Shown here: piece by piece, positions 31,022 through 51,911 of the stretch
How positions within the stretch are numbered: position 1 is the first letter of the stretch
Layout of the letters: each line of letters opens with the position of its first letter
From: Clostridia bacterium
GTDB lineage: Bacteria > Bacillota > Clostridia > Christensenellales > Aristaeellaceae
Direction: 5' to 3'
DNA: 51,911 nt
Assembly: GCA_017481825.1 (NCBI GenBank)
Contig: JAFUOR010000096.1
Location: 1-51,911, forward strand
Program-made: the position numbers and the translations under genes
Notes under the pieces: model-generated
Database searches by the model: none
What the model saw: only the letters and a program-made list of their open reading frames with translations
Told to the model about the DNA's origin: nothing

Positions 31022-31050
31022 AGTATATCAGAACACGCAATATTTTTCAA
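31022..31050 (-). promoter_or_regulatory. Leftward repressor promoter
   Basis: On the minus strand TTGAAA (31045-31050) and TATACT (31022-31027) are 17 bases apart, about 27 bases upstream of the repressor start. One copy of the ACACGCAATAT repeat fills its spacer. Confidence 0.8.
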
Positions 31051-31085
31051 CCTTTTTGCAAAAAAACGCTTGACACACGCAATAT
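31033..31085. repeat. Paired ACACGCAATAT operators in the prophage switch
   Basis: The 11-mer ACACGCAATAT occurs at 31033-31043 and 31075-31085, 42 bases apart, about four helical turns. One copy lies in the spacer of the leftward promoter and the other across the -35 edge and spacer of the rightward promoter. A second shared word, CGCTCAA, occurs at 30999-31005 and 31108-31114. These are the likely CI/Cro binding sites. Confidence 0.7.
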
Positions 31086-31098
31086 ATTTGAGTATTAT
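31070..31098 (+). promoter_or_regulatory. Rightward early promoter
   Basis: TTGACA (31070-31075), 17-base spacer, TATTAT (31093-31098), within 50 bases of the first early gene. It should drive the early operon when repressor is cleaved. Confidence 0.87.
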
Positions 31099-31145
31099 AA
31101 TCCAGAACGCTCAATTTTATTAAGTTTTTTGAAAGGAGGTTTCAT

Positions 31146-38401: not shown

Positions 38402-40642
38402 ATGGACAAATACAACCCCCTCGACCTACTCACCCACATCGACCCGTCCCGCTGCACCTACCAGGAATGGCTGAACGTCGGCATGGCCCTGCACGCCGAA
38501 GGCTGCACCGCCGACGACTGGGACCGCTGGAGCCAGCAGGATCACAGCCGCTACCACCCCGGCGAATGCCACAAGAAATGGCGCGGCTTTGGCAGCGGCT
38601 CCGGTACCCACATCACCGGCGGCAGTCTGGTCGCGCTGGCCCGTCAGCAGGGAAACATGCCCGTAGGGGCGAGGCTTGCCCCGCCCGCCCCCGGGCGTGA
38701 ACTCAGCTGGGACGACACCATCCGCACCGACGACCTGGTTATCCTGGACAAGGACTTCATCCAGCCCCAGACCATTCATGAGCCCACGGACTGGAACCCC
38801 CGCCGCGAGCTGATCACCTACCTTGAAGCCCTCTTTGACTCCACCGACCGCGTCTCCTACGTCACCGAGACATGGGAAAAGGAAGGCAGGCACATGCCGA
38901 AAAAGGGCGCCTCCGACCGCACTGCCGGCGAACTGATCGCCGCCCTCCACCGCTGCACGGACATCTCCGACGTGATCGGCACCGTCAACGAGGAGGCTGG
39001 CGCGTGGATCCGCTTCAACCCCATGGACGGCAAGGACGTGCGCAACGACAACGTCACCGCCTTCAACTACGCGCTGGTAGAGTCCGACTCCCAGGACATC
39101 GAGAAGCAGTACGCCCTCATGCAGGAGCTGCAGCTGCCCATCAGAATTCTCGTGCACTCCGGCGGCAAATCCCTGCACGCCATCGTCCGCGTGGACGCAG
39201 GCAGCATCGAGGAATACCGCTCCCGGGTGGATTACCTGTACACCGTCTGCCGGAAGAACGGCCTGGAAATCGACGGCCAGAACAAGAACCCCAGCCGCCT
39301 CAGCCGCATGCCCGGCGTGATTCGCCGCGGCAAGAAGCAGTACATCGTTGCCCTGGACATGGGCCAGCCCTCCTTCACCGCGTGGAAGGAATACGTCGAA
39401 TCGGTCAACGATGATCTCCCGGACTTCGAGAGCATGGCGGACTACTTCGACGCGCCTCCCCCGCTGGCGGATGAGCTGATCGCCGGATGCCTGCGTCAGG
39501 GGCACAAGATGCTGCTCTCGGGTCCCAGCAAGGCGGGCAAATCCCTCGCGCTCATGGCGCTGACCATTGCCATCGCCGAGGGAATCCCGTGGATGGGCAT
39601 GCGCTGCCGTCAGGGACGCGTGCTCTACATCAACCTTGAGCTGGCCAGGGCAAGTTGCTGGCACCGCTTCAAGGGCATCTACGAGACACTGCACATCGCG
39701 CCGAAGGGACTGCGGAACCTCGATGTCTGGAACCTGCGCGGACACTCCCTGCCCATGGACAAGCTCACCCCGAAGCTCATCCGGCGCGCACTGAAGAACG
39801 ATTACACCGCTGTTATCATCGACCCGATCTATAAAATCATCACCGGCGATGAGAATTCCGCTGAGCAGATGATGCTGTTCTGCAACCAACTCGACCGCCT
39901 CTGCACCGAATTGGATACTGCCGTAATCTATTGTCACCATCACTCCAAGGGCGCGCAGGGCGGCAAACGAGCCATCGACCGCAGCTCCGGCAGCGGCGTC
40001 TTTGGCCGCGATCCAGACGCTCTCCTGGACATGATCGAGCTGGAGCTCTCCGAGGCGGCGCTGCGGCACCTGAAGGACCGCGCTGCGTGGGACGAGATCG
40101 TCCGCCAGCTGGACGTGCGCCTCCCCGACTGGCGGGACAGCTTTACCGCCGAGGATCAGCGCAGCCACATCGCTCTGAAGCTCGCCGCCCAGCTGAGGCT
40201 CCCTCCGCAGGATTATGCAGATCTGTGCGCCGGCATCGAGCGCGCCGAAATGCTCGCCGCCCAGAAGACCGCCTGGCGCATTGAGGCGACGCTGCGCGAG
40301 TTCCCCAAGTTCCCGCCCATTGACGTGTGGCTGGAATATCCCCTCCACCGGGTGGATGACACGGGGATCCTCGCGGATCTGGCGGCGGATGAGCAGCGCC
40401 CGGCATGGCAGAAGGCGACAAAGGCACGCAAGGCACATGCTGCTGCCAAGAAGGACGACGGCGCGGTGAGGTTCACAGAAGCGGTTAGCGCTGCCAATAT
40501 GGGCGAGCCGCCGACGCTGAAGGAACTCTCCGATTATCTGGGCATTTCAGAGCGTACATGCCGGGACAAGCTCAAGCAATACGGCTTCAAAATGGACAGC
40601 CGGACAAAGCTGATTATGAAAGCATCGACCTTACAAACATGA
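38402..40642 (+). CDS. Phage primase-helicase with PriCT-like, primase and RecA-fold ATPase domains
   Basis: 746 residues. Residues 1-80 resemble a PriCT-type domain (YQEWLNVGMALHAEG ... GGSLVALARQ). Residues 130-330 resemble an archaeo-eukaryotic-type primase core, with ESDSQD and SGGKSLHAIVRVD, and NPSRLSRMPG. Residues 355-580 are an AAA_25/RepA-like helicase with Walker A SGPSKAGKS (373-381), VIIDPIYK and YCHHHSKG. The C-terminus has an HTH (TLKELSDYLGISERTCRDKL). It probably primes and unwinds at the phage origin, for which a candidate follows immediately. A palindromic repeat is read in frame at residues 87-98. Confidence 0.85.
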   Translation: MDKYNPLDLLTHIDPSRCTYQEWLNVGMALHAEGCTADDWDRWSQQDHSRYHPGECHKKWRGFGSGSGTHITGGSLVALARQQGNMPVGARLAPPAPGRELSWDDTIRTDDLVILDKDFIQPQTIHEPTDWNPRRELITYLEALFDSTDRVSYVTETWEKEGRHMPKKGASDRTAGELIAALHRCTDISDVIGTVNEEAGAWIRFNPMDGKDVRNDNVTAFNYALVESDSQDIEKQYALMQELQLPIRILVHSGGKSLHAIVRVDAGSIEEYRSRVDYLYTVCRKNGLEIDGQNKNPSRLSRMPGVIRRGKKQYIVALDMGQPSFTAWKEYVESVNDDLPDFESMADYFDAPPPLADELIAGCLRQGHKMLLSGPSKAGKSLALMALTIAIAEGIPWMGMRCRQGRVLYINLELARASCWHRFKGIYETLHIAPKGLRNLDVWNLRGHSLPMDKLTPKLIRRALKNDYTAVIIDPIYKIITGDENSAEQMMLFCNQLDRLCTELDTAVIYCHHHSKGAQGGKRAIDRSSGSGVFGRDPDALLDMIELELSEAALRHLKDRAAWDEIVRQLDVRLPDWRDSFTAEDQRSHIALKLAAQLRLPPQDYADLCAGIERAEMLAAQKTAWRIEATLREFPKFPPIDVWLEYPLHRVDDTGILADLAADEQRPAWQKATKARKAHAAAKKDDGAVRFTEAVSAANMGEPPTLKELSDYLGISERTCRDKLKQYGFKMDSRTKLIMKASTLQT
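38663..38686. repeat. GTAGGGGCG palindromic element, copy 2 (inside coding sequence)
   Basis: GTAG then GGGCGAGGC-TT-GCCCCGCCC (8 of 9 positions pair). It lies between the PriCT-like and primase domains of the primase-helicase gene and encodes PVGARLAPPAPG, close to the peptide encoded by copy 1. Confidence 0.78.
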
Positions 40643-40703
40643 TCACCGCAAATTGTGGCGGCGACCATGAAAACATGATCACCACAAATTGTGGCGGCGA
40701 CCA
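40635..40703. repeat. Two 33-bp tandem repeats, candidate iterons
   Basis: Units at 40635-40667 and 40671-40703 differ at one position, with a period of 36 bases. Each contains GATCACC and an almost palindromic CCACAAATTGTGG core, then CGGCGACCA. The first unit overlaps the primase-helicase stop codon. Confidence 0.75.
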
Positions 40704-40704
40704 C

Positions 40705-40723
40705 TATATTACTTCGTAATATA
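40705..40723. repeat. AT-rich palindrome beside the tandem repeats
   Basis: TATATTAC-TTC-GTAATATA, perfect 8-base arms, directly after the second repeat, in an otherwise GC-rich region. It would be the easiest stretch to melt here, as expected for an origin unwinding element. Confidence 0.65.
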
Positions 40724-40746
40724 TCCTACGGTCTGACGTTGTCATC

Positions 40747-40797
40747 CCTTGAGAAGGGAAAGGGGCTCAGAGCATTGCCCCTTTTCCCCCTTCAAGG
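40747..40797. repeat. Long imperfect hairpin
   Basis: CCTTGA ... GGGAAAGGGGC pairs with GCCCCTTTTCCC ... TCAAGG around TCAGAGCATT. It resembles the CCTTCCCCTCAAGGGGAAGG class of interspersed hairpins, of which a clearer copy lies at 49,257. No T-run follows, so it is not a standard terminator. Confidence 0.6.
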
Positions 40798-40804
40798 AGA
40801 CGAC

Positions 40805-40846
40805 ATGACCCCTACCCCCTTGCGAAAGAAAGGAGCTCTCACATGA
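40805..40846 (+). CDS. Possible 13-codon leader ORF
   Basis: AAGGAG then ATG opens MTPTPLRKKGALT and its TGA overlaps the next gene's ATG as ATGA. Probably a translational coupler rather than a functional protein. Confidence 0.25.
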   Translation: MTPTPLRKKGALT

Positions 40847-41052
40847 ATACCCCCAAATGCAGCGAATGTCAATATCGGCTGCGTGAGCTTTACTTCGGCT
40901 ATCACAAGTACATCGAATTCTGCACAAATCCTGAATCAAAACCCCAAAATCGGGCGCACCGAGTAATCGGATGCGGGCGCACTTACGATGACAAGCCAGC
41001 CTCGGTCAAGACCTGTCCCCGCTGGTGTCCGCTGCGAAAGAAAGGTGATTGA
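40843..41052 (+). CDS. Small cysteine-rich phage protein
   Basis: 69 residues with CSEC near 6-9, and later Cys at EFCTNP, GCGRTY and TCPRWC, compatible with a small zinc-binding protein. AAAGGAG precedes the ATG. Function unknown. Confidence 0.68.
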   Translation: MNTPKCSECQYRLRELYFGYHKYIEFCTNPESKPQNRAHRVIGCGRTYDDKPASVKTCPRWCPLRKKGD

Positions 41053-41054
41053 GT

Positions 41055-41168
41055 ATGGCCAAACAATTCCGAATCCCCGCCAAGCAAATCATCCGCGGCT
41101 GCTCTGATTGCTGCCCGTACAGGGATGTGCAGATGGATATCGACGAAGAAACGGAGGACATCACATGA
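41055..41168 (+). CDS. Very small phage protein with CSDCC motif
   Basis: 37 residues, MAKQFRIPAKQIIRG then CSDCCPYRD and an acidic end. Preceded by AAAGGTGA and overlapping the next gene (ATGA). Similar small Cys-rich proteins are frequent in phage early regions. Confidence 0.5.
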   Translation: MAKQFRIPAKQIIRGCSDCCPYRDVQMDIDEETEDIT

Positions 41169-41512
41169 TCAGCAACGCTCTTAAGAACATGGTTGAATCA
41201 GCCGTCTGCACGGAGCATGCGGACATCAAACACATTCACGGCGAACGCTACGCCAGCGCCCATGAGGGCTACGGTGTCCTGATGGAGGAACTGCACGAAG
41301 CCACCGTTGAGCTGCGCGACCTGGACAGCCTCGTCCGGGAGCAGCTGATGGAGGATCTGCACGACAACGACCTGTCCGGCATGATCTGCTCCCTCACAGA
41401 TGTGGAGCTGTTCGCCCGGAAGCTCGCCTACGAGGCAATCCAGGTTGCCGCCGTGGCGCGGAAGATGGCGGACACGCTGGCGGAGATCAGGGAGGAGGCA
41501 GAAGGTGCATGA
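41165..41512 (+). CDS. MazG-like phage protein
   Basis: 115 residues. ASAHEGYGVLMEELHEATVE near 33-52 has the EExxE helix of all-alpha NTP pyrophosphohydrolases, and a second helix pair follows (LAYEAIQVAAVARKM). The second acidic motif of MazG is weak, so catalysis is uncertain. The start at 41165 overlaps the preceding stop. Confidence 0.65.
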   Translation: MISNALKNMVESAVCTEHADIKHIHGERYASAHEGYGVLMEELHEATVELRDLDSLVREQLMEDLHDNDLSGMICSLTDVELFARKLAYEAIQVAAVARKMADTLAEIREEAEGA

Positions 41513-41622
41513 AGACGATCATCTGCCTTCTGCTCTACACCGCAGCCTGCCTGTTCCTGATCCGCTTCATCGCGGTCTACACCCTGCACAACAGGAACGA
41601 TGACGGAGGTGCGGAAGGATGA
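41509..41622 (+). CDS. Very small single-TM protein
   Basis: 37 residues: MKTIICLLLYTAACLFLIRF and a polar tail HNRNDDGGAEG. 4-base overlaps with both neighbours support translation. Function unknown. Confidence 0.5.
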   Translation: MKTIICLLLYTAACLFLIRFIAVYTLHNRNDDGGAEG

Positions 41623-41807
41623 ATTACTGGCTTGAAGCTTTTCGGAATGAGACTACTGAGGATGGCAGGTTTCAAATCATCTGGAAGGTAGCACACCTTG
41701 AAACGCATAACAGCGTAAGCAAAGAGGCGCTGCTGGAAATGCTCCGGTTCATGGCAGATTACATGCTGGAGGAAGTGCCGCAGGGCGGAGGTGCTTCCCA
41801 TGGCTGA
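41619..41807 (+). CDS. Small hypothetical phage protein
   Basis: 62 residues, MNYWLEAFRNETTEDGRF with helical remainder (SKEALLEMLRFMADYML). Overlaps both neighbours. No domain recognised. Confidence 0.6.
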   Translation: MNYWLEAFRNETTEDGRFQIIWKVAHLETHNSVSKEALLEMLRFMADYMLEEVPQGGGASHG

Positions 41808-42126
41808 CCGCTGCACCCTCCACATCAAGCACCTTGACGCATTCGCCGGCTTTCTCTCCGCCCGGGGCTTCTACCCGCTGCCCCTGACCAACTGCTACGA
41901 AGTGCTGCGCATGCGCAACGGCAAGCAGCTGGTCGTGGTGTACAAGCGGGATTCCGCAACCCAGCACCTGACCGTGCAGGACAAGGCGTTTCCGCTGGTC
42001 AGAGCGTTCTACAGATCGCGGAAGGAGGATCCCCATGCCCCGACAAGCCAAACCGGCAAAGGATTACACTGTGCCCCGGTCCATTATGTCTCACGTCAAA
42101 GCAAAGACCTGCCCTGCCTGCGGTAA
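41800..42126 (+). CDS. Hypothetical phage protein with extended C-terminus
   Basis: 108 residues from ATG 41800. The core (HIKHLDAFAGFLSARGFYPL, EVLRMRNGKQLVVVYKRD, HLTVQDKAFPLVRAFY) is coherent to about residue 78; the last 30 residues overlap the following gene in another frame and look random (SQTGKGLHCAPVHYV). The original stop has probably been lost. Function unknown. Confidence 0.6.
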   Translation: MADRCTLHIKHLDAFAGFLSARGFYPLPLTNCYEVLRMRNGKQLVVVYKRDSATQHLTVQDKAFPLVRAFYRSRKEDPHAPTSQTGKGLHCAPVHYVSRQSKDLPCLR

Positions 42127-42256
42127 GAATTTCGACTGCATGCCAGACACCTGGCGCTTCATGTTCCGGGGCAAGCGCGGCAAATCGCGTTTTCTGCTGC
42201 ACATAGAGCTGTTACCGCAAGGCTACCGCATAAGCACAAAGGAGATGCAGAAATGA
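42035..42256 (+). CDS. Small zinc-ribbon-like protein, probably frameshifted at its end
   Basis: 73 residues with GGAGG ahead of ATG 42035. KTCPACGKNFDCMPDTWRF is a half zinc ribbon. The expected second Cys pair is absent in this frame, but another frame reads CCT-stop-SCYRKAT at the right distance, suggesting a frameshift near 42,190 that replaced the C-terminal half. The nominal stop overlaps rusA (ATGA). Confidence 0.55.
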   Translation: MPRQAKPAKDYTVPRSIMSHVKAKTCPACGKNFDCMPDTWRFMFRGKRGKSRFLLHIELLPQGYRISTKEMQK

Positions 42257-42690
42257 CCCTTCGTGAATTCTTCCTCCCCGCTCCCTATCCCGGCGCAGAC
42301 TGGCCGCCCACGACCACCGCCCAGACCCGCGAAATCGGCGTCAACAAAAAGACCGGCAAGCCCTACCTCTACAAACCCGACCAGCTGCTGCAAGCGGAGA
42401 TCAACATCCGCAACGCCCTGGCCCGGTTCCGTCCGGAGAAGCCGATCACCAACAAGCCCATCCGCCTGACGGCGAAGTGGCTCTACCCCATCACCGACCC
42501 GAAGAAGCACTTCCACGGTGAGTATAAGATCACCCGGCCGGACACCGACAACGTGGAGAAGCTCCTGAAAGACTGCATGACCGACCTTGGCTTTTGGGTG
42601 GATGACAGCCTGGTGTGCTCTGAGATCATCGAAAAGTTCTGGGCGGATACGCCAGGCATCTATGTCAAAATCGAGGTGCTGGACGGATGA
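42253..42690 (+). CDS. rusA: RusA-family Holliday junction resolvase
   Basis: 145 residues. The catalytic region RPDTDNVEKLLKDCMTDLGF and WVDDSLVCSEIIEKFW carries the family aspartates and Lys. It cleaves branched DNA made during phage recombination and replication before packaging. Coupled to both neighbours by 4-base overlaps. Confidence 0.9.
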   Translation: MTLREFFLPAPYPGADWPPTTTAQTREIGVNKKTGKPYLYKPDQLLQAEINIRNALARFRPEKPITNKPIRLTAKWLYPITDPKKHFHGEYKITRPDTDNVEKLLKDCMTDLGFWVDDSLVCSEIIEKFWADTPGIYVKIEVLDG

Positions 42691-42983
42691 CCATGCTCCC
42701 ACAACCTGTACATGATCCGCCCACCATCATCTGCTGTGACCTATGGCCCCGCAGCACCCTCACCCAGGCGAAAATGGACGCGTACAAGCGCCTGATCGAC
42801 CTGGGGGACATCAGGATCCGGCGTGTCGTGTATCACAAAGCCACCGGATACACCACCGTTGAATACTGGTCGAACCTGCCTCACGCCTGGACGCTGAACA
42901 AACTCCGTGAGCTGGCGGCAGTGCTCGACCAGGGAACACAAATCAGACTTGATGACATAAACAGGAGGATTTATACATGCTAA
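42687..42983 (+). CDS. Hypothetical phage protein
   Basis: 98 residues, starting with a proline-rich MTMLPQPVHDPPT. Later YKRLIDLGDIRIRRVVYHKA and ELAAVLDQGTQIRLDD. No family recognised. Overlaps rusA and the sigma-like gene. Confidence 0.6.
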   Translation: MTMLPQPVHDPPTIICCDLWPRSTLTQAKMDAYKRLIDLGDIRIRRVVYHKATGYTTVEYWSNLPHAWTLNKLRELAAVLDQGTQIRLDDINRRIYTC

Positions 42984-43372
42984 CCGTTGAACAGCTAAAG
43001 CGCTGTCGAAACTATGCCCTTGAGATCCGCGCACTGGAGCAGCAGCTGCAGCGCTGCCTGCCCACTGGCAAACCTGCACGGGTAAGGACTCAGCAGTACG
43101 ACGCTGATCCTCCCGGTACAAACGACCCGACTGCTGCCGCTTTGCAGCTCTATGAAGGTCTGCTCAAGCAGCGTGATGAACTGCAGGAAGCATTCAAGCC
43201 TTTATATCAGCGCTGCTTTGACGATATCACACAGCTGAAAGATCCCCGCGCAAGCGTCATTCTCTGCCGGTACTACCTCATGGGCGAGACGGACTATGAG
43301 ATTTCGCTCAATCAGGAGCTCTGCAGATCGCAAATCTGCGAGCTGCGTCGTCGGGCACTTAAACTGCTTTGA
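42977..43372 (+). CDS. Sigma-70 region 4-like / ArpU-type late regulator (DUF1492-like)
   Basis: 131 residues. An N-terminal helical part (EIRALEQQLQRCL) is followed by a C-terminal region resembling sigma region 4 (DPRASVILCRYYLMGETDYE then LCRSQICELRRRALKLL). In phages of Bacillota such proteins directly precede the terminase genes and activate late transcription. A promoter with TATAAT lies 65 bases downstream. Confidence 0.75.
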   Translation: MLTVEQLKRCRNYALEIRALEQQLQRCLPTGKPARVRTQQYDADPPGTNDPTAAALQLYEGLLKQRDELQEAFKPLYQRCFDDITQLKDPRASVILCRYYLMGETDYEISLNQELCRSQICELRRRALKLL

Positions 43373-43436
43373 CAGAATACACCGACTGCATTTCACATGT
43401 CCGGCACAGGTTGACACAGGCTGACACGGCCTTGTA

Positions 43437-43465
43437 TTGCACCGACGCGCAACCCGTGATATAAT
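43437..43465 (+). promoter_or_regulatory. Candidate late promoter
   Basis: TTGCAC (43437-43442), 17-base spacer, TATAAT (43460-43465), about 105 bases upstream of terS. Just before it, TGACAC occurs twice within 20 bases (in TTGACACAGGCTGACACGG), a possible activator site. Confidence 0.72.
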
Positions 43466-43512
43466 GCTATCATGAGATGCTGCGAAGAAAAATGAGTGCC
43501 TCCGCAGAATCC

Positions 43513-43540
43513 GGGGAGACGGTACGCCGCCTCCCCTTTT
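43513..43540 (+). terminator. Leader hairpin with T-run ahead of the terminase genes
   Basis: GGGGAG pairs with CTCCCC, with inner CGG/CCG pairing, followed by TTTTCG. It lies between the late promoter and terS, so transcripts must pass it to reach the head genes. Confidence 0.62.
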
Positions 43541-43571
43541 CGTTGCACAGAAAAGCAGGAACGGAGGGAAG

Positions 43572-44081
43572 GTGGACGGCATGGGCGCACAGGCTCGCGG
43601 ACGAAAAGGAAAATACGAAGCCTGGCTTGAGCCGGACAACCTGACCCGCCTCGAAGCGTGGGCGCGCGACGGGCTGACGCTGGAGCAGATCGCCCACAAC
43701 ATCGGCTGCAGCCTGTCCACCCTGCATGAGTGGCGCAACCGATTTCCGGAGATTTCGGACGCCCTAAAAAGGGGCGCTGAGGTCGTGGACATCCAGGTCG
43801 AAAACGCCCTCCTGCGCCGTGCTCTGGGTTACAGCTACAACGAGGTCACAAAGGAGCTGGAAACAGATCCGGAAACCGGTGAAAAGACGCTCCGGACAAC
43901 CAAGGTCGTAACCAAGCAGGTCGCCCCTGACACCACCGCTCAGATCTACTGGCTCAAAAACCGCCGCCCCGACAAGTGGCGTGACAAGCCCGTGGACGAA
44001 AGCGAGAGCGCGACCCTGTCCGCTGCCCGGGAGCTGCTGGGCGGCATCCCCTCCGTAATAAATGGAGGCCATAAGCCATGA
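43572..44081 (+). CDS. Phage terminase small subunit
   Basis: 169 residues from GTG 43572, or 166 from ATG 43581; GGAGGGA suits the former slightly better. An HTH (LTLEQIAHNIGCSLSTLHEW) for packaging-site recognition, then VENALLRRALGYSYNEV and the family's basic end IYWLKNRRPDKWRDK. It forms the oligomer that delivers phage DNA to the large subunit. Confidence 0.9.
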   Translation: MDGMGAQARGRKGKYEAWLEPDNLTRLEAWARDGLTLEQIAHNIGCSLSTLHEWRNRFPEISDALKRGAEVVDIQVENALLRRALGYSYNEVTKELETDPETGEKTLRTTKVVTKQVAPDTTAQIYWLKNRRPDKWRDKPVDESESATLSAARELLGGIPSVINGGHKP

Positions 44082-45352
44082 GCCTGACCGACAAGCAGCA
44101 GGAATACCTGCAGAGCTGCTTCCACCGCTGGAACCTCAAGATCGGTGCGACCGGCTCCGGCAAGACCTGGCTGGATCAGGCCGTCGTCATCCCCCAGCGC
44201 ATCCTCGCCATGAAGGGACAGGGCGCTGGCGTGCTGATCGGAAATTCTCAAACTTCACTGGAGCGCAATGTACTGACGCCCATGCGCGGCATCTGGGGCA
44301 AGTCCCTTGTGGGCGAGATCCGCAGCAAGGACAACACCGCCGTTCTTTTCGGCCGGCGGATGAACATCTTCGGCGCAGACAAGATCGACAGCGTGGAAAA
44401 GATACAGGGTATGACCATCGAATACGCCTACGGGGACGAAATGACGACCTGGGCGCAGCCGGTGTTCGAGATGCTCAAGAGCCGCCTGCGCTGCGTGGAC
44501 AGCCATTTCGACGGGACTGCAAACCCCTCTGATCCCAAGCATTGGCTGAAGAAGTTCATCGATGCGCCGGAAATCGACGTCTACGCTCAGACCTCCACCA
44601 TCTACGATAACCCCTTCCTGCCTGCGGATTTCGTCTCGGCGCTGGAAAAGGAATACGCCGGAACGGTCTACTTTGACCGCTTCATCCGGGGGCTGTGGGT
44701 ATCGGCGCAGGGCGTGATCTACCCCAAATTCGCCCATCACCCCAGGGCATTCCACCTGAAGGACGGGCAGCTGGCCACAATGAAGGCAGGGCGTGTCGAT
44801 GATCCATGGGGCATGCTGACCTGCTGCCAGATCGGCGTGGACTTCGGCGGCGATGGCTCCGCGCACGCCTTCTCCCTCGTGGGCTTCACCAAGGGTTTCA
44901 CGCAGATGGTGCTGCTGGAGGAGTACTACCGGCATGAGGTCATCGGTCCGGAGCAGCTGGAGGAGGACTTCATCGCCTTTGCGAGCATGTGTCAGAAGAA
45001 ATACGGTGCACAGCGGGTGGTCGCCTGCTTCGCTGACAGTGCAGAGCAGACCCTCATTCAGGGCCTGCGCGCGGCGATCCGCAAGGCACGCATCGCGCTG
45101 GATATCCAAAACGCCCGCAAGGGCCCCATCAACGACCGCATCCGCTTCCTCAACCGGCTTATCGGCAGGGAGCGGTTTTTCATTGCTCCCCACTGCGTCC
45201 ACACGGAGGACGCGCTGTGCTCCGCCGTCTGGGATGCCAAGTCCATCGGCAAGGACGTGCGCCTGGACGACGGGAAGCACAATATCGACTCCCTGGACGC
45301 GCTGGAGTACGCCTTCGAGCCGTTCATGGACGTGATGATTCAGCTCTCTTAA
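44078..45352 (+). CDS. Phage terminase large subunit
   Basis: 424 residues. ATPase part: Walker A GATGSGKT (23-30), Walker B-like YAYGDEMTTW. Nuclease part: GVDFGGDGSAHAFSL, ACFADSAEQTL and DDGKHNIDSLDALEYAF supply the acidic metal ligands of the RNase H-like fold. It translocates and cuts DNA into proheads; the form is of the PBSX/Terminase_3 type. Start overlaps terS (ATGA). Confidence 0.94.
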   Translation: MSLTDKQQEYLQSCFHRWNLKIGATGSGKTWLDQAVVIPQRILAMKGQGAGVLIGNSQTSLERNVLTPMRGIWGKSLVGEIRSKDNTAVLFGRRMNIFGADKIDSVEKIQGMTIEYAYGDEMTTWAQPVFEMLKSRLRCVDSHFDGTANPSDPKHWLKKFIDAPEIDVYAQTSTIYDNPFLPADFVSALEKEYAGTVYFDRFIRGLWVSAQGVIYPKFAHHPRAFHLKDGQLATMKAGRVDDPWGMLTCCQIGVDFGGDGSAHAFSLVGFTKGFTQMVLLEEYYRHEVIGPEQLEEDFIAFASMCQKKYGAQRVVACFADSAEQTLIQGLRAAIRKARIALDIQNARKGPINDRIRFLNRLIGRERFFIAPHCVHTEDALCSAVWDAKSIGKDVRLDDGKHNIDSLDALEYAFEPFMDVMIQLS

Positions 45353-45364
45353 CGGAGGTATTAC

Positions 45365-46729
45365 ATGATTCGTACCTGGCTGACCTCCAGCGGCTACATG
45401 CTGCCGGAGGACGACACCTACGCTGCCATGCAGACCTGGATGAGCTGGTACAGGGGCTATGTGGCGGACTTCCACCGCTACTGGGTCTACACCGGCGGCA
45501 GCAAGCGCCGCACCCGCCTGACCCGCGCGACGCTGAAGATGGCGAAGTCCGTCTGCGCGGAGCATGCCAAGCTCCTCATCAACGACCGGGTGCGCATCAC
45601 CTGCGAGGGCTTCAACGAGCTGGACGCGATCCTCGCCCGGACGGACTTCCGCGCACAGGCCAACCGGCTGATCGAGCTGGCCTTCGCCCTGGGTACCGGC
45701 GCCTTTGTGGAATACAAAGCCGCGGACGGCTCCCCCGTGATCGACTTCGTGCGCGGCGATATGGTATTCCCCCTTTGCTGGCGGGGCACAACCGTCACCA
45801 ACTGCGCCTTTGGCAGCCGCATCACGCTGCCCGACGGCAAACGCGGCTATTACATTCAGTTGCACGAGCAGCTGCCGGGCAAGGTCTACCGCATCCGCAA
45901 CGTGTACCTCAATCAGGAGGGCAAGCAGATCCCCGCGCCGGAGGACGTGCAGGCAGAGATCCTAACCGGCAGTACCTCGCCGCTGTTTCAGCTGATCCGC
46001 CCCGCCCGCGTCAACAGCGTGGATCTGGACAGCCCTCTGGGCATGTCTGTCTTCGGCGACGCCATCGATCAGCTGCGCGGCGTCGATCTAATCTATGACA
46101 GCTACCTCAACGAGTTCACCCTGGGCCGCAAGCGCTGCATGGTGCCCCAGACAATGGCCACGATGCTGCAGGAAAAGGACGGCATCGTCGCCCCGCGTTT
46201 CGACCCCAAGGACACCGTTTTCTATGTTTATGAGCAGTCCCTCGACGGCAAGCAGGACCTGCGCTTTATCGACCCGACGCTCCGGGTGGATGAGCACACG
46301 AAGGCCCTGCAGCAGATGCTGGATCTGTTGTCCTTCAAGTGCGACCTGGGCATTGGGCGCTTCCGCTTTGAGGGCGGCACGGTCAAGACCGCCAAGGAGG
46401 TCATTGCACAGAACAGCGACCTGTACCAGTCCATCAAGCGCAACGAGCAGGTGATCGAATCCGCCATTTTCGACATGATCCGCGCACTGGCTTTCCTGAG
46501 CGGTCACACGGCGGACTGCACCCCGGTCATCACCTTCGACGACAGCGTCTTTGAGGACGACGACGCCACCGCCACCCGCAACGTACTGCTGGTGAACGCT
46601 GGCCTGCGCACCCGCACGGACGCAATCATGTCCGTTGACCGGGTAGACGAAGCCATCGCCAAGCAGAAGGTTGCCGCGATCCTCAAGGAGGAGCGCGGCC
46701 AGTTGGATGACTTCCCTGAGGCTGATTGA
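45365..46729 (+). CDS. Phage portal protein (SPP1 gp6-like)
   Basis: 454 residues. Typical blocks include LKMAKSVCAEHAKLLINDRV, AFALGTGAFVEYK, SPLGMSVFGDAID and the late AKEVIAQNSDLYQSIKRNEQ crown/clip helix. It forms the dodecameric ring through which DNA enters. CGGAGG precedes the ATG. The TGA stop overlaps the alternative TTG start of the next gene. Confidence 0.9.
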   Translation: MIRTWLTSSGYMLPEDDTYAAMQTWMSWYRGYVADFHRYWVYTGGSKRRTRLTRATLKMAKSVCAEHAKLLINDRVRITCEGFNELDAILARTDFRAQANRLIELAFALGTGAFVEYKAADGSPVIDFVRGDMVFPLCWRGTTVTNCAFGSRITLPDGKRGYYIQLHEQLPGKVYRIRNVYLNQEGKQIPAPEDVQAEILTGSTSPLFQLIRPARVNSVDLDSPLGMSVFGDAIDQLRGVDLIYDSYLNEFTLGRKRCMVPQTMATMLQEKDGIVAPRFDPKDTVFYVYEQSLDGKQDLRFIDPTLRVDEHTKALQQMLDLLSFKCDLGIGRFRFEGGTVKTAKEVIAQNSDLYQSIKRNEQVIESAIFDMIRALAFLSGHTADCTPVITFDDSVFEDDDATATRNVLLVNAGLRTRTDAIMSVDRVDEAIAKQKVAAILKEERGQLDDFPEAD

Positions 46730-46731
46730 CA

Positions 46732-48294
46732 ATGATCGACTATTCTGACCCCATCCGGGCGGTCTACGTAGCCTGCGTGGATGAGTGCATGACCGCCCTT
46801 TGCAGGCACTTCAACGCCAAAGCAACCGGTTACGACGGCACCTTCGCCTATCAGACGGCGATGTTGACCGAGCTGGGAGCCGTCCGGCGCGAGGTGGCAG
46901 ACATCATTGCCCGGCACACCTACGGCGTGGACGGCATGGTGTCCGAGGCGGTGCGCACCGCCATGCTGAAAGCCGTCAATGAGGTGGAGCCCTCCCTGCT
47001 GGCAGCCGTCAAGGCGGGCGTGGTGGACGGCACCGACGTGCCCATCAGCGACAGCATCGAGATGGCTCTGAGCAGCTACAGCCGCCAGGCGGTGGAGCAG
47101 CTCAACCTGGTCAACACCGTCATGCTGGAAAGCTGCCTGAACAACTACCGAGCCCTGGTCTCCAACACCGCCTCCTACGAGGCCCAGCTGAACGAGGCGC
47201 AGCGGATCCTGAACGCAGAGACGGGCAAGGTCGTCACCGGCGTGAGCAGCCACCAGCAGGCCGTCCGCCAGGCGGTGCAGCAGTTCGCCCGCACCGGGCT
47301 GACCGTGTTCACCGACAAAGCCGGACACCGCTGGAGCCCCGAAGCCTACGCCGCCATGGACATCCGCACGACGGTCAACAACGCCGCCCGGCAGGCCGTG
47401 ATGGACCGCAACGAGGACTACGGCAACGACCTGGTCAGCGTGCCGATCAACGCCACTGCGCGTCCTAAATGCTCCCCCTGGCAGGGCAAGGTCATTTCGA
47501 CGGCCAACGAGGCCCGCACGGTGACCGATCTGCACGATCGGCCCGTGCGGGCCTACGCCCTGAGCGAAACCACCTACGGCGAGCCCGACGGTCTGTGGGG
47601 CATCAACTGTCATCACCAGCCGAGCCCCTTCTTTGCTGGGCTCTCCGTGCTGCGGGGCGAGGTACCGGACAAGGAAGACAACGATGAGCTGTACGCCCTC
47701 ACCCAGCAGCAACGACGCCTGGAGCGTGACGTGCGCAACCTCAAGCGCGAGGCGGTCATGCTGGATGCTGCCGGGGATGCGGAGGGCTTTGCCGCAGCCG
47801 CCCGGAAGGTCAAAGCCGCCCAAAGCCGCCTGCGGGAACACTGCGAGCAGAATTCCCTGCCGATGCGTAGTGACAGGACGCAGGTTTTGGGGTATAATAG
47901 ATCTGTCAGCGGAAAGGCAAAGGCGGCGGTTCCGACCAGCTACCGCCATCATAAGGACGGCACCATCGTCGTGACGCACGACTGGAAAGCCAAGGGGAAA
48001 GTGTCTGCACCCTCGAAGCTCGCACCTTTTGCAGTCCTCGAAACACTGTCCGGCAAGCATCAACAGGTAGATCGCACCCTGTATGGTGCAGATGCCCGCA
48101 TGTGTAAGCAAATTCACTCCCGCGCTCATCTGAAACATCTGAATCCCGATTATGATAACGGCGGCGCACATGCGCACGACTTCATCGACGGAAAACGTAT
48201 TCTTCGTTATGAATCCACCGGCCTGGATGGCCGGAATCTGACAGAACAGGAGGTGCTCGAACATGGAGACATCATTGACCGTACAAGGCCTTAA
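46732..48294 (+). CDS. Phage minor capsid protein with distinct C-terminal domain
   Basis: 520 residues from ATG 46732 (TTG at 46726 is an alternative). Residues 1-390 fit phage minor capsid protein 2 / SPP1 gp7-type proteins, with a helical body and the capsid-motif region MDIRTTVNNAARQ, ARPKCSPWQGKV and GEPDGLWGINCHHQ. From about residue 400 a separate domain begins (PTSYRHHKDGTIVVTHDW) with HSRAHLKHLNPDYDNGGAHAHD near the end. The DNA for this part is less GC-rich, a promoter-like site lies at the junction, and a small ORF overlaps the end. The domain looks like an added effector; its activity is unknown. Confidence 0.85.
   Translation: MIDYSDPIRAVYVACVDECMTALCRHFNAKATGYDGTFAYQTAMLTELGAVRREVADIIARHTYGVDGMVSEAVRTAMLKAVNEVEPSLLAAVKAGVVDGTDVPISDSIEMALSSYSRQAVEQLNLVNTVMLESCLNNYRALVSNTASYEAQLNEAQRILNAETGKVVTGVSSHQQAVRQAVQQFARTGLTVFTDKAGHRWSPEAYAAMDIRTTVNNAARQAVMDRNEDYGNDLVSVPINATARPKCSPWQGKVISTANEARTVTDLHDRPVRAYALSETTYGEPDGLWGINCHHQPSPFFAGLSVLRGEVPDKEDNDELYALTQQQRRLERDVRNLKREAVMLDAAGDAEGFAAAARKVKAAQSRLREHCEQNSLPMRSDRTQVLGYNRSVSGKAKAAVPTSYRHHKDGTIVVTHDWKAKGKVSAPSKLAPFAVLETLSGKHQQVDRTLYGADARMCKQIHSRAHLKHLNPDYDNGGAHAHDFIDGKRILRYESTGLDGRNLTEQEVLEHGDIIDRTRP
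47870..47898 (+). promoter_or_regulatory. Internal promoter at the junction to the C-terminal domain
   Basis: GTGACA (47870-47875), 17-base spacer, TATAAT (47893-47898), inside the minor capsid gene exactly where the capsid part ends. It could express the downstream small ORF at 48263 outside the late programme. Confidence 0.6.
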
Positions 48295-48496
48295 AGAGAT
48301 ACTCTTGAAAGCCCGCACAGACATCGTTGCAGACCTTGGAGAGCACGAACTGCTCTTCTACCACGATGAAGGCGGCGTCAATGTCACCACAGATCGCCTC
48401 TATACGTTCCACACCTGGGACGAAATGCTCGCGCAGCCCATCTTCTGGGGCAAGCGGCTTGAAGAAGTCGTTGCGCAGTTCATCGTCTACTGGTAA
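48263..48496 (+). CDS. Small acidic protein overlapping the capsid effector-like domain
   Basis: 77 residues, with AGGAGG eight bases ahead of the ATG, inside the last codons of the minor capsid gene (32-base overlap). Acidic and aromatic-rich (LGEHELLFYHDEGGVNV, FHTWDEMLAQPIFW, VAQFIVYW). The size, charge and position match what is seen for immunity proteins, but no family is recognised. It is followed immediately by a strong terminator. Confidence 0.7.
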   Translation: METSLTVQGLKEILLKARTDIVADLGEHELLFYHDEGGVNVTTDRLYTFHTWDEMLAQPIFWGKRLEEVVAQFIVYW

Positions 48497-48513
48497 TCTT
48501 CATTTCGCCATCA

Positions 48514-48545
48514 AGCGCCCAGCCATCACGGCTGCGGCGCTTTTT
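48514..48545 (+). terminator. Rho-independent terminator after the small acidic gene
   Basis: AGCGCC-CAGCC-ATCA-CGGCTG-C-GGCGCT then TTTTTG. Strong stem of 11 pairs with one bulge. It lies in the middle of the head operon, between the minor capsid and scaffold genes. Confidence 0.85.
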
Positions 48546-48618
48546 GTGTGCCCCAAATGCCGACGGGCAATAAACGGAATCAACGGCCTACCAGGCCTTA
48601 AACGGGAGGTATTTCGCC

Positions 48619-49212
48619 ATGGCTGAACAGAATCCCAATCCCACCACCCCCACTCCCCCGACCAATCCCCCCGCGAATCCCCTTGCTGCACCGCAGCCTG
48701 CTCCTGGCTCCGGCGATCCCGATGCCATCGTCAGCGCCCTGATGAAGGCGCTGGAAGGCCGCCAGCAGCGCGTGGAACGCAGCGTCACCCGGGACATGGC
48801 CGCCCAGTACGGCATGACCGAGGATGAGCTGACCACACTGCTGAACAACCACCGGGCCGAGAAAGCCAAGCAGCTCTCCCCCGAGGCACAGCAGCAGCTG
48901 AACGCCGCCAACGCCCGCGTGCAGGCCCTTTTGCTGCAGAACGAGGTGACCAAGCTCGGCGCTGCCATGGGCCTGGTCGATGCGGACGCTGCCATCGCCC
49001 TGATGGACCGCACCAAGGTAAAGACCGAGGGCGAGACCATCACCGGCGTGCAGGAAGCACTGGACGCGCTCAAGACCGGCAAGCCCTACCTGTTCGGTAC
49101 CGCCGCGCAGCAGCAGATTGCGCAGGCATGGGGCCAGCAGCATGGCTCCGGCGGCGGTGACGACGGCGAGGCCGCCTTCCGTAAGGCGCTGGGGCTGGAT
49201 GTCAAGAAGTAA
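48619..49212 (+). CDS. Phage scaffolding protein (DUF4355-like)
   Basis: 197 residues. A Pro/Asn-rich start (1-32), a long charged coiled-coil centre (VERSVTRDMAAQYGMTEDEL ... EAQQQLNAANARVQALLLQ) and a Gly-rich end are typical of scaffolds placed just before the major capsid gene. GGGAGG precedes the ATG. Confidence 0.85.
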   Translation: MAEQNPNPTTPTPPTNPPANPLAAPQPAPGSGDPDAIVSALMKALEGRQQRVERSVTRDMAAQYGMTEDELTTLLNNHRAEKAKQLSPEAQQQLNAANARVQALLLQNEVTKLGAAMGLVDADAAIALMDRTKVKTEGETITGVQEALDALKTGKPYLFGTAAQQQIAQAWGQQHGSGGGDDGEAAFRKALGLDVKK

Positions 49213-49224
49213 GGCAGACGGCAG

Positions 49225-49277
49225 GCACACCTCATCCGTCAGCCTGACTGCTGCCACCTTCCCCTCAAGGGGAAGGC
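49225..49277. repeat. Interspersed hairpin element (CACCTCATCCGTC ... CCTTCCCC-TCAA-GGGGAAGG)
   Basis: CACCTCATCCGTC followed by a short variable part and the perfect hairpin CCTTCCCC-TCAA-GGGGAAGG (49257-49276). I recognise this arrangement as a common interspersed repeat of gut Clostridia (from memory, not searched). It sits directly after the scaffold stop. Confidence 0.7.
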
Positions 49278-49298
49278 ATGGGTACACACTCACAAAAT

Positions 49299-49322
49299 GT
49301 AGGGGCGGCAATCTGCCGCCCG
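49299..49322. repeat. GTAGGGGCG palindromic element, copy 3 (intergenic)
   Basis: GTAG then GGGCGGCA-ATC-TGCCGCCC (8-base perfect arms). It lies 20 bases before the major capsid gene, abutting the preceding hairpin element and just ahead of the CGGAGG ribosome site. Confidence 0.82.
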
Positions 49323-49342
49323 CAAAACGGAGGTAACACACA

Positions 49343-50266
49343 ATGCCCAACACCATTGAAAAGTTCCGCAAGTATACCACCATGCTGGATGAGGCGCTGA
49401 CCATGTCCGCTCTGACCGGCGTGCTGGACTCCGACCCCTCCCTGGCTGAGCTGGGCCGCAACGCCGGCGAGATCGTCATCCCCAAGATGGACATGGACGG
49501 CCTGGGCAACTATGACCGCAACAACGGCTATCCCGCCGGCTCCGTCACCCTGGAGATGGAGACCCGCAAGTGCGACTACGAGCGCGGCCGCATGTTCACC
49601 ATCGACGCGATGGACAACGAGGAGTCCGCTGGCCTGGCCTATGGCCGTCTGGCGGGCGAGTTCATCCGCATGAAGGTGGCCCCTGAGATGGACGCGGTGC
49701 GTCTGGCCAAGTATGCCAGCCTGTCCCCTGCGGCCAACCGCGCCGTGCACGCCACCTTCGCCGACGGCAAGGCGGTGGTGAAGGCGATTTCCGACGGCTT
49801 CACCAAGATGACCGACGAAGGCGTGCCTGAGAGCGGCCGCGTGCTGTTCATCACCGCGACCCTGCGCGGCATGATCGACAACATGGACACCTACCAGTCC
49901 AAGACGCTGCTGGAGAAGTTCTCCAAGATCGTGACCGTGCCCTCCGACCGCTTCTACAGCGCCGTCACCCTGCTGTCCGGCGGCGAAGGCCAGACCGCCG
50001 GCGGCTACAAGAAGGCGGACGATGCCGTTTCTCTGAACTTCGAGATCGTCTACAAGCCCGGCCTGCTGCAGTTCGTGAAGCACGCCGCGCCCAAGATCAT
50101 CACCCCCGAGGCGAATCAGGATGCCGATGCCTGGAAGTTCGGCTACCGTGTCCTGGGCCTGAACGACGTAAAGGACAACGCCCTGAAGGGCCTGTACGTT
50201 TCTTCCGCCGCCGCGATCCCTACGGCTGCCGCTGCGAACGCTGAACCCACTGGCGGTGACGCCTGA
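49343..50266 (+). CDS. Phage major capsid protein
   Basis: 307 residues, HK97-fold type judging by length and context: an N-terminal arm (MPNTIEKFRKYTTMLDEAL), GEIVIPKMDMDGLGNY, a long-helix region RLAGEFIRMKVAPEMDA, and the A-domain block ESGRVLFITATLRGMIDN. The last 20 residues are Ala-rich. CGGAGG precedes the ATG. The stop overlaps the next start (TGATG). Confidence 0.92.
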   Translation: MPNTIEKFRKYTTMLDEALTMSALTGVLDSDPSLAELGRNAGEIVIPKMDMDGLGNYDRNNGYPAGSVTLEMETRKCDYERGRMFTIDAMDNEESAGLAYGRLAGEFIRMKVAPEMDAVRLAKYASLSPAANRAVHATFADGKAVVKAISDGFTKMTDEGVPESGRVLFITATLRGMIDNMDTYQSKTLLEKFSKIVTVPSDRFYSAVTLLSGGEGQTAGGYKKADDAVSLNFEIVYKPGLLQFVKHAAPKIITPEANQDADAWKFGYRVLGLNDVKDNALKGLYVSSAAAIPTAAAANAEPTGGDA

Positions 50267-50649
50267 TGATCACCGCTGAGGATTACACTGCGCTGACGTA
50301 CCTGGAAGCCCCTGAGGCCTTCTCGGCAATCCTGCCCATGGCTGAGGAGCTGCTGCACGCGCGGACGCTCCAGCAGTACCGCCGGGAAGACATACCCGAG
50401 GTACCGCTGACCATCTTCAAGCAGGCCCTTGCCCTGCAGGTGGCCTTCATGGACAGCCGCGGCATCGAAGGCTGGGCAGACCCCGCCATGATGACCGCCG
50501 GTGTGACGCTGGGGCGCTTCTCCGTGCACAGCGGCGGCGGATCCTCAGTGCAGGGCGCAGCCATGGAGCTGCTGGCCCCGGCTGCTGCAGCGCTGCTGCC
50601 CACGCTCATGGCATACGCCCGGGCATGGATGGGCGGTGAATGTCCGTGA
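50266..50649 (+). CDS. Head-tail connector (gp6-like) protein
   Basis: 127 residues, mostly helical (MITAEDYTALTYLEAPEAF; LTIFKQALALQVAFMDSRG) with a Gly/Ser-rich segment SVHSGGGSSVQG, as in phage head-tail adaptors located after the major capsid gene. Confidence 0.78.
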   Translation: MITAEDYTALTYLEAPEAFSAILPMAEELLHARTLQQYRREDIPEVPLTIFKQALALQVAFMDSRGIEGWADPAMMTAGVTLGRFSVHSGGGSSVQGAAMELLAPAAAALLPTLMAYARAWMGGECP

Positions 50650-50987
50650 AGCGTCCGCCCATCCCGCGCGGGATCCTGCCGCACAAGGCGCAGCTGCAGA
50701 CGGAAACCAAAGACGCCTGGCAGCACACCACTGTCACGGACAGTCACGACCTCAAATACATCCGCATCGATGCGGATCTGACCCGCCGGGCAAGCGAAAA
50801 GGACACCGTCCACGCTGCCCGGTGGTTGCTGTTCTACGACTGCCGCAACTCCCTTCCCCGGGATGTGACCTTTTCTCTCGGCCAGGTGATCGTCTGGAAC
50901 GACCTGCGCCTGACCGTCAAGGAGGTCACGCCCGTCTGGGAGGATCAGGCGATCCATCACTACGAAGTGGAGCTGGAGGGCGGCTGA
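50640..50987 (+). CDS. Phage minor capsid / head-closure protein
   Basis: 115 residues, beta-rich (YIRIDADLTRRASEKD, ARWLLFYDC, FSLGQVIVWNDLRLTVKEV). The position between connector and gp10-like protein and the NDLRLTVKEVTPVW segment fit a putative minor capsid protein 1 / head-completion protein. Overlaps its upstream neighbour by ten bases. Confidence 0.75.
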   Translation: MSVKRPPIPRGILPHKAQLQTETKDAWQHTTVTDSHDLKYIRIDADLTRRASEKDTVHAARWLLFYDCRNSLPRDVTFSLGQVIVWNDLRLTVKEVTPVWEDQAIHHYEVELEGG

Positions 50988-50988
50988 C

Positions 50989-51333
50989 ATGGGTGTGCGC
51001 ATTGAGTTCAACCGGGCCGCTGCAAAGCAGAAGATCGCTGATCGCTGGGACGGCAGGGTGCTGGCCCCGCTGAGCGAGCAGATTCTGAAGGACTGCAACC
51101 AGTACTGCAAGGAGGACACCGGCGCGCTGATCGCCTCCAGCCAGGCTCATTCCCGCCCCAGGGAGGGCAAGCTGATCTGGCGCACGCCCTACGCCCGCAA
51201 ACAGTACTACGTCATCCGCACCGCCAGCGCCGTCATCAACCCCGGAGCCCGCTGGCGCTGGGCACACCATGCCAAGTCCGTGCATCTCAAGGACTGGCAG
51301 AAACTCGCCCAGAAGCTCTACAACGGAGGTTAA
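50989..51333 (+). CDS. Phage minor capsid protein 2 / gp10-like head-tail joining protein
   Basis: 114 residues: VRIEFNRAAAKQKIADRW, KEDTGALIASSQ, LIWRTPYARKQYYV and PGARWRWAHHAKS follow the short minor capsid 2/HK97 gp10 type. It joins the neck to the tail. Starts one base after the previous stop. Confidence 0.78.
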   Translation: MGVRIEFNRAAAKQKIADRWDGRVLAPLSEQILKDCNQYCKEDTGALIASSQAHSRPREGKLIWRTPYARKQYYVIRTASAVINPGARWRWAHHAKSVHLKDWQKLAQKLYNGG

Positions 51334-51336
51334 TCC

Positions 51337-51729
51337 ATGACCGACAGCATCATCAATCAGGCCATATCCGCCGTGATGGGCATGGCGGAGGAAACCGGCC
51401 TGTTTGCACCCATCACACGGGGGCCGCTGGGAGCGGACGCGGGCGTCCGCATGGAGCTCTCCCCGGGCAGTCCGCCCACCTGCCACCTGGACAGGCGCTG
51501 CGAGGTGCAGCTGTCCCTGGTGATCAACGCCAAGCACCGGGATATGCAGCTTGTATCGAACACCCTGCATCGCATCCACGATGCCCTCACCCGCGCGCCC
51601 GCCTACCCCCACGGGGACGCATGGCAGATCACCCACATCCAGACGGAATCCCTGCCCGAATTGATCGAGCGGGAGCCGGGCGACCTGTGGCTGTTTGCAT
51701 CCGCCCTGACCGTGACGCTCTACTACTGA
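51337..51729 (+). CDS. Phage minor capsid protein 3 / tail terminator-like
   Basis: 130 residues with helix then beta sandwich (RRCEVQLSLVINAKHRDMQL, LWLFASALTVTLYY), in the usual slot for a tail-terminator or minor capsid protein. CGGAGG precedes the ATG. Confidence 0.74.
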   Translation: MTDSIINQAISAVMGMAEETGLFAPITRGPLGADAGVRMELSPGSPPTCHLDRRCEVQLSLVINAKHRDMQLVSNTLHRIHDALTRAPAYPHGDAWQITHIQTESLPELIEREPGDLWLFASALTVTLYY

Positions 51730-51744
51730 CAAGGAGGATCCCCC

Positions 51745-51906
51745 ATGAACGAAGTGGACAAGATCATCAACCAGCTTTCCGCCATGACCGGCTGGCTGCG
51801 TGCCGGCAAGGACAACGAGAACATCCGCAGCGAGATGTACACCGCTGCTGCCAAGACCTGCCGCGACCTGTGCGAGCGCATCGAGAAGCTCCAGCAGGAC
51901 GGCTGA
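51745..51906 (+). CDS. Small helical phage protein
   Basis: 53 residues, MNEVDKIINQLSAMTGWL and a basic helical remainder ending KLQQDG. AAGGAGG precedes the ATG. It lies between the tail-terminator slot and the expected tail-tube gene beyond the window. Function unknown. Confidence 0.65.
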   Translation: MNEVDKIINQLSAMTGWLRAGKDNENIRSEMYTAAAKTCRDLCERIEKLQQDG

Positions 51907-51911
51907 TCCCC

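Follow-up and report, generated by a model that had tools for sequence, protein, structure and literature searches.

A contig of 51,911 nucleotides from a Clostridia bacterium (JAFUOR010000096.1; this whole stretch is called the window here), part of an incomplete genome of 163 contigs, carries a phage head gene whose product ends in a toxin-like domain and is followed by a gene for a small acidic protein. We read this locus as a MuF-type polymorphic toxin–immunity module of a temperate phage, in which a promoter-like site inside the head gene and a terminator behind the small gene would give the immunity protein a transcript of its own. On the sequence evidence laid out below, we put the probability of this reading at about 0.75.

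The carrier, its toxin-like tail and the linked small protein

The carrier gene lies at 46732-48294 on the forward strand, as do all features below unless stated otherwise, and encodes 520 residues from an ATG, or 522 if translation starts at the TTG at 46726. Its core (residues 5-372; 46744-47847 by the coordinates of the Pfam match) matches PF06152 (Phage_min_cap2, or MuF2) with 264.3 bits against a cut-off of 26.3, and the protein also matches the PHROG 581 minor head protein with 334.5 bits. Alignments and hhalign delimit a toxin-like domain of 119 residues at the C terminus (residues 402-520, 47935-48291). Overlapping the end of the carrier by 32 nucleotides, an open reading frame (ORF) at 48263-48496 encodes a putative immunity protein of 77 residues with a net charge of -7, and its ribosome-binding site AGGAGG (48248-48253) forms an anti-Shine-Dalgarno duplex of -11.6 kcal/mol. 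An earlier note, made from the letters of the window alone, had described the last ~120 residues as a separate block richer in A/T at third codon positions, with a strong ribosome-binding site and an acidic 77-residue ORF overlapping its end. This description stands: the core match ends at residue 372, the tail is mobile, and guanine-plus-cytosine (GC) content at third positions falls from 0.85 (codons 46732-47932) to 0.56 across the tail (47935-48291), with 0.68 for the small ORF; nine other ORFs measured in the head region range from 0.75 to 0.88.

Across 26 sequences of the tail domain, H65 and H79 are invariant and V34, R47 and H81 are at least 90% conserved. When window-like tails were compared by hhalign with a diverged set including the locus L046, they matched with a probability of 98.7% (E 4.5e-16), against 0.2% in each of two unrelated control comparisons. 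At E<=1, 10 of the 26 members matched a PHROG family named toxin and three matched Ntox24 (PF15529), the best of them being L046 (23.2 bits, E 8.8e-5); the window's own tail gave zero matches to Ntox24 at that threshold. Judged by eye, Y50 (either Y or F) may correspond, along with H65 and H79, to the Y/H/H signature of Ntox24. Searching 249 genomes for the Ntox24 family returned two matches below the cut-off, both in genomes already holding this tail family, and 14 control genomes returned 0. Profile searches against the PDB gave no match, one match at E 6.6 and 17 matches at E 0.04 or worse. A metal-binding role for the HxH motifs of the tail was dropped, as nothing supported it. By these comparisons the tail appears to be a distant relative of Ntox24 and is therefore perhaps a metal-independent RNase. 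Given the Ntox24 match of L046 and the 10 matches to toxin-named PHROG families, the pair is most likely a MuF2 toxin whose tail is Ntox24-like and its cognate immunity protein.

Among 150 related genomes the tail family was matched in the window's own and one other, a metagenome-assembled genome of the same host family, where the tail is 56% identical, the small protein lies alongside and the carrier has only a weak Mu_F match (E 0.021). Scans for the family located six loci among genome contigs and 13 among viral ones; in the latter a single protein query found 0 relatives, a two-row alignment found the 13 loci and a 15-row alignment found the same 13 contigs. With the own genome counted each time, wider searches found the tail in 1 of 396 genomes of the order, 6 of 391 of the class and 11 of 398 of the phylum. 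The genome-contig loci come from Clostridia, Oscillospiraceae, Anaeromassilibacillus, Butyricicoccus and Gemmiger. By eye, the carriers are MuF2 proteins of several clades, and L003 (which has a weak Pfam match), L013, L037, L040 and L043 are MuF- or SPP1 gp7-like; L046, again judged by eye, encodes a secreted-looking protein, not a capsid one, in which a stretch resembles peptidoglycan-binding sequence; a small acidic ORF lies behind it. A diverged form of the domain occurs in phage records: a Paenibacillus phage protein annotated as a toxin has it (homology reached through L046), as do minor capsid proteins of Javan316, a Streptococcus phage, and phiCDKH02, a Clostridioides phage. By position, a small hypothetical protein comes next in each case. 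A tblastn search of 50,697 phage records with the window tail found nothing at E<=1; weak tblastn matches in three Lichenicola plasmids (two under istA, E 0.04-0.1) were treated as chance. In L045, by eye, portal-like sequence, MuF and toxin domain share one open frame of 755 residues, with a partner behind.

A small ORF lies close behind the toxin gene, or overlaps it, at 19 of 19 loci from the first scans of genome and viral contigs, at all five further loci from the class-level search and at 8 of 10 from the phylum-level search; of the other two, L048 runs into a contig edge and L051 is a broken remnant. The small ORF is present wherever an intact toxin gene and downstream sequence can be read. 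All 28 small proteins listed are acidic, with charges of -4 to -13. The window's protein and that of the metagenome-assembled relative align with a score of 131, above all 1000 shuffles (maximum 44), and a profile-profile comparison of window-like partners with eleven others gave 82.7% (E 9.5e-6). The 14 Pfam families listed at E<=1 for 26 small proteins include neither Imm50 nor Imm53. In a set of 25 loci, selected for having both genes readable, toxins and partners diverge in step (Mantel r 0.57, p 0.0002), a correlation that could also be explained by common descent of the two genes. That set leaves out the near-copies L010, L016 and L019-L021, the loci L047-L049 (frame-broken, nothing downstream and fragment), the remnants L050 and L051, the later-found L081 and the phage records L052-L054.

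Several loci show variants of this arrangement. In L003 (4648-5234; L002, 2187-2773) an 81-residue protein weakly similar to the partner (score 49, shuffle maximum 45) lies behind it, together with a Cys_rich_CPCC protein (Pfam E 2e-16); these downstream genes look like a small array of immunity genes. L050 (915-1169, reverse complement) has an intact partner-like ORF beside a toxin remnant with stop codons, and could be a case of immunity retained after toxin loss. L049 (1519-1967) holds a toxin fragment and an intact partner without a carrier, an orphan cassette that by eye sits 3' of a different toxin-like gene and 5' of a transposase-like ORF.

As the earlier note had envisaged, the small ORF is linked to the tail, and the tail is not constant on its core. 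Cores of L071 and L072 are 93% identical with tails at 26%, and those of L077 and L078 are 98% identical with tails at 32% (the first 40 tail residues are excluded from these tail identities); L076 and L080 share 91% identical cores and have tails of 47 and 309 residues. The reverse case is seen in L014 and L016, with 35% identity over the first 300 residues and 99.5% over the last 190. Toxin and partner of these two loci are nearly identical and the shift in similarity falls inside the carrier, probably through recent recombination. The window's core is 92% identical to that of L056, which shares a contig with L009, and 57% identical to that of L071. Relatives of this core, present in 12 of 120 genomes (own included), bear other tails, several with other small ORFs, and two of them (L059, L065) have no long tail. 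On these comparisons, the tail is a mobile domain, and the partner is linked to it.

The surroundings are those of a prophage head operon. An SPP1-type portal gene (SPP1_portal match, 45365-46729) ends directly 5' of the carrier start and is itself preceded by a terminase gene. The minus strand encodes a serine recombinase (27796-29538) and an S24/helix-turn-helix repressor (30381-30995), and the element is therefore taken to be a temperate prophage. By gene content and order, then, the carrier is the MuF2 protein of a temperate prophage, placed behind its portal gene. There are no tRNA genes in the 51.9 kb of the window and zero Rfam matches within 40000-51911.

The embedded promoter-like site and the terminator

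The linker between core and tail contains a promoter-like site. GTGACA (47870-47875) and TATAAT (47893-47898), separated by 17 nucleotides, agree with the consensus at 11 of 12 positions; over both strands of the whole window there are seven sites of at least 10/12, three of them 11/12. Three of these seven strongest sites lie immediately upstream of the repressor gene, at 31050-31123, and point both ways, as a lysogeny switch would lead one to expect. A scan at 9/12 or better over 43000-51911 gave two sites against 1.6 expected, not above chance, and the case for a promoter therefore rests on conservation.

Between the window and L009, whose cores are 92% identical, 51 consecutive nucleotides around the site (47857-47907) are identical, third positions included; the toxins (56-57% identical) and partners (39%) have diverged. 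Under synonymous recoding with each gene's own codon use, neither the window nor L009 regained such a site in 1000 trials (p 0.001 in both cases), and combining this null over 24 (related) loci gave p = 2e-7. The same -35 element occurs in L009/L056 and L071/L074, and the same -10 element in these and in L073 and L081. L071/L074 have the complete GTGACA-17-TATAAT in the same position, with an unrelated tail behind it. TGGACA-17-TATAAT precedes a member of the window's toxin family in L081 and yet another tail in L073, and in L072/L079 the -10 element is lost. A site of at least 10/12 with a spacer of 17 lies 299-403 nucleotides upstream of the partner start in 22 of 24 family loci, a threshold that was fixed after the window had been seen. 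In all, the 24 loci have 34 sites of at least 9/12 against 11.3 expected in shuffles.

Behind the small ORF, a hairpin (48513-48542) and a T run form an intrinsic terminator (48513-48545) that would end the promoter–immunity unit. Its fold has a z score of -5.1, with 0 of 200 shuffles equally stable, and the hairpin differs from that of L009 by one substitution. A simple terminator scan missed this hairpin, which has a bulge, and was rejected as disproof of the terminator. Similar ATCAAGCG...GCGCTTTTT terminators lie behind the different tails and small ORFs of L071/L074 and L072/L079, and a hairpin terminator follows the partner within about 170 nucleotides in 21 of 24 family loci, a count without a shuffle control. 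The earlier note had placed GTGACA-N17-TATAAT at the junction of core and tail and a terminator at the end of the unit; both are found, and the promoter-like site is conserved in relatives.

We extended the comparison to MuF2 carriers at large, using the best 80 of 260 loci. Among these, 43 have intact long tails (33 clusters, by tail similarity) and 30 have short tails (20 clusters, by core similarity); six are cut by contig ends and one short carrier (L076) lies too near its contig end. Of the 33 long-tail clusters, 15 have a promoter of at least 10/12 at the junction or in the tail; in the adjacent upstream core stretch (some of these being shorter than the tail, with the contig starting there) the count is one of 33, and the expectation from shuffles is 3.2. 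In a stretch of equal size, and with five long-tail clusters of locus GC above 0.68 excluded, such promoters occur in 14 of 28 long-tail and 1 of 20 short clusters (Fisher p 0.0012); the long-tail count is 12 of 26 without the window's toxin family (p 0.0026) and 14 of 33 with the GC-rich clusters kept. Terminators within 450 nucleotides follow 19 of 25 long and 6 of 20 short clusters (p 0.003), three of the 28 long clusters having been skipped for less than 300 nucleotides downstream.

Alternative readings

The site could be an incidental effect of codon use and of constraint on the peptide in an imported, AT-richer cassette, the locus otherwise being an ordinary MuF toxin–immunity pair. GC does drop in the tail, peptide constraint accounts for many relatives and the 9-of-12 scan is at chance; yet the window's site lies in the carrier linker, before the AT-rich tail domain begins, and the synonymous null and the 51 identical nucleotides with their third positions both speak against it. 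With the same site before the unrelated tail of L071/L074, and near absence of such sites from the core stretches just upstream, we consider this account unlikely. Another account, also unlikely and somewhat more so, lets the internal promoter drive the small protein and, by way of an internal start, the toxin tail as well, as an addiction-type toxin–antitoxin module of the kind proposed for Rhs elements. An in-frame GTG with a moderate Shine-Dalgarno sequence is indeed found in the window (-292, -7.5 kcal/mol), L003, L009 and L013, the partner starts of L005 and L006 have almost no ribosome site in the same scan, and L049 has toxin fragment and partner without a carrier. The window's GTG, however, falls within the conserved GTIVVT block, which a start there would cut, the ribosome site of the partner start is stronger (-11.6 kcal/mol), and no strong in-frame start recurs at one place across 22 loci. 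A structural or DNA-packaging accessory role for the tail, with the small ORF encoding a chaperone or assembly factor, is very improbable: near-identical cores bear different tails or no long tail (L077/L078, L076/L080), relatives match families named toxin, and the domain also sits on the secreted-looking, non-capsid L046 with a small acidic ORF behind, even though the tail belongs to a capsid protein among head genes and many MuF2 relatives bear tails of undefined role.

Several observations weigh against a toxin–immunity module with its own conserved promoter. The carrier's last 144 residues alone have zero Pfam, PHROG or NCBIfam matches at E<=1, and the score of L046 for Ntox24 lies just under the cut-off of 24 bits. 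At 15 of 24 loci the single synonymous-null p exceeds 0.1; two of these lack the site and two have their best site outside the tested stretch, and the high values arise mostly because, in much of the family, a peptide with Y-N or Y-H ahead of DGTIVV already favours a hexamer like TATAAT. The shuffle expectation comes mostly from AT-rich loci, with about one chance site of at least 9/12 each, and L042, L045 and L072/L079 have no 10-of-12 promoter. In the survey, 14 of 28 long-tailed clusters lack a 10-of-12 promoter, 6 of 20 short carriers have a terminator too, the promoters are consensus scores and the clusters are not phylogenetically independent. Even so, the toxin–immunity reading is the one we prefer. 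The earlier note had likened tail and small ORF to a morphogenesis-borne effector with its partner, and the MuF2 carrier, the linkage and the swaps largely uphold that layout.

Relation to known toxins and meaning of the module

In outline the module is of a kind already known, a point absent from the earlier note. The portions of the literature covered here describe MuF toxins, with N-terminal domains MuF1-4, in which PF06152 (MuF2) lies behind the portal gene with a small ORF and a C-terminal toxin that usually has homologues in other families of polymorphic toxins, and propose that the toxin is delivered along with the DNA (Jamet et al. 2017, PMC5576092). The window shares the MuF2 N terminus, the position after the portal, the C-terminal extension, the temperate phage and the small downstream ORF, for which that family sets a length below 150 residues and which has 77 here. 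It differs in a tail that Pfam, PHROG and NCBIfam do not recognise and in the embedded promoter-like site and terminator; the main text of PMC5576092 has no mention of promoter, transcription, terminator or recombination. Ntox24 is described in the covered part of its source as all-beta, with a Y/H/H signature, conceivably a metal-independent RNase and delivered by MuF among other routes (Zhang et al. 2012, PMC3482391). The likeness of the window lies in the Y, H, H signature seen by eye and the one relative at 23.2 bits, and the difference in a tail unmatched at E<=1 and in small proteins whose Pfam scan shows no Imm50 or Imm53.

Two further MuF toxins, Bxa and Apk2 (of the systems Bxa/Bsi-BAH and Apk2/IapK-Aph1), are reported to be antibacterial and neutralised by neighbours (PMC11699363, PMC12226406, in the portions covered). 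Like the window's protein they are MuF-fused with a neighbouring gene, but they have other catalytic domains and two immunity proteins each, and the covered text of both papers mentions promoters for cloning vectors only. In Vibrio cholerae, tsiV1-3 of type VI secretion are expressed from promoters inside effector genes while the effector operon is silent (PMC3857813). The internal promoter in an effector gene is the shared feature; the system there is a bacterial secretion system and not a phage head gene, and the covered text mentions no promoter–terminator bracket round exchangeable cassettes. Internal promoters in Rhs loci are, in the part covered, another published precedent (PMC7043789). 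In the open-licence literature covered, we found no internal promoter for minor capsid or MuF phage toxin genes. As far as these searches go, the window's toxin–immunity family and its conserved embedded promoter are new.

The sequences themselves show homology, linkage, exchange of cassettes, a conserved promoter-like site and terminator, and genes for lysogeny; toxicity, RNase activity, neutralisation, delivery and transcription are inferred from them. We propose that the MuF2 core, by analogy with SPP1 gp7 (PMC5576092, as covered), would place one or a few copies of the carrier in the phage head, from which the C-terminal domain would pass into the next cell along with the DNA, arresting any cell without the partner. 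In producing cells and lysogens alike, the acidic protein of 77 residues would bind the toxin and so block it. A sigma-70-type promoter in the linker, together with the terminator, would yield a separate immunity transcript, and through it a lysogen with a silent late operon would stay protected. Fixed promoter and terminator would thereby bracket exchangeable cassettes, with lysogens making immunity without the late operon, and a newly recombined pair could inherit immunity expression from its edges. Whether many MuF phages carry such a cassette dock in the head operon, with the promoter in linker codons and the terminator before the scaffold gene, so that recombined pairs become head cargo in lytic growth and immunity alone in the lysogen, we regard as evenly balanced.

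The biological role of MuF toxins is termed unknown in the covered part of PMC11699363, and how lysogens stay immune with the late operon off is not mentioned in the MuF literature covered. A conserved internal promoter would be a testable answer, as well as a DNA signature for MuF toxin cassettes of unknown sequence, and the toxin domain with its partner makes up a toxin–immunity family unnamed in the searched model libraries. The parallel with type VI secretion (PMC3857813, as covered) would make the wiring of a silent weapon with a constant shield a shared solution. If the dock is real, a prophage could switch weapons without an interval of self-poisoning.
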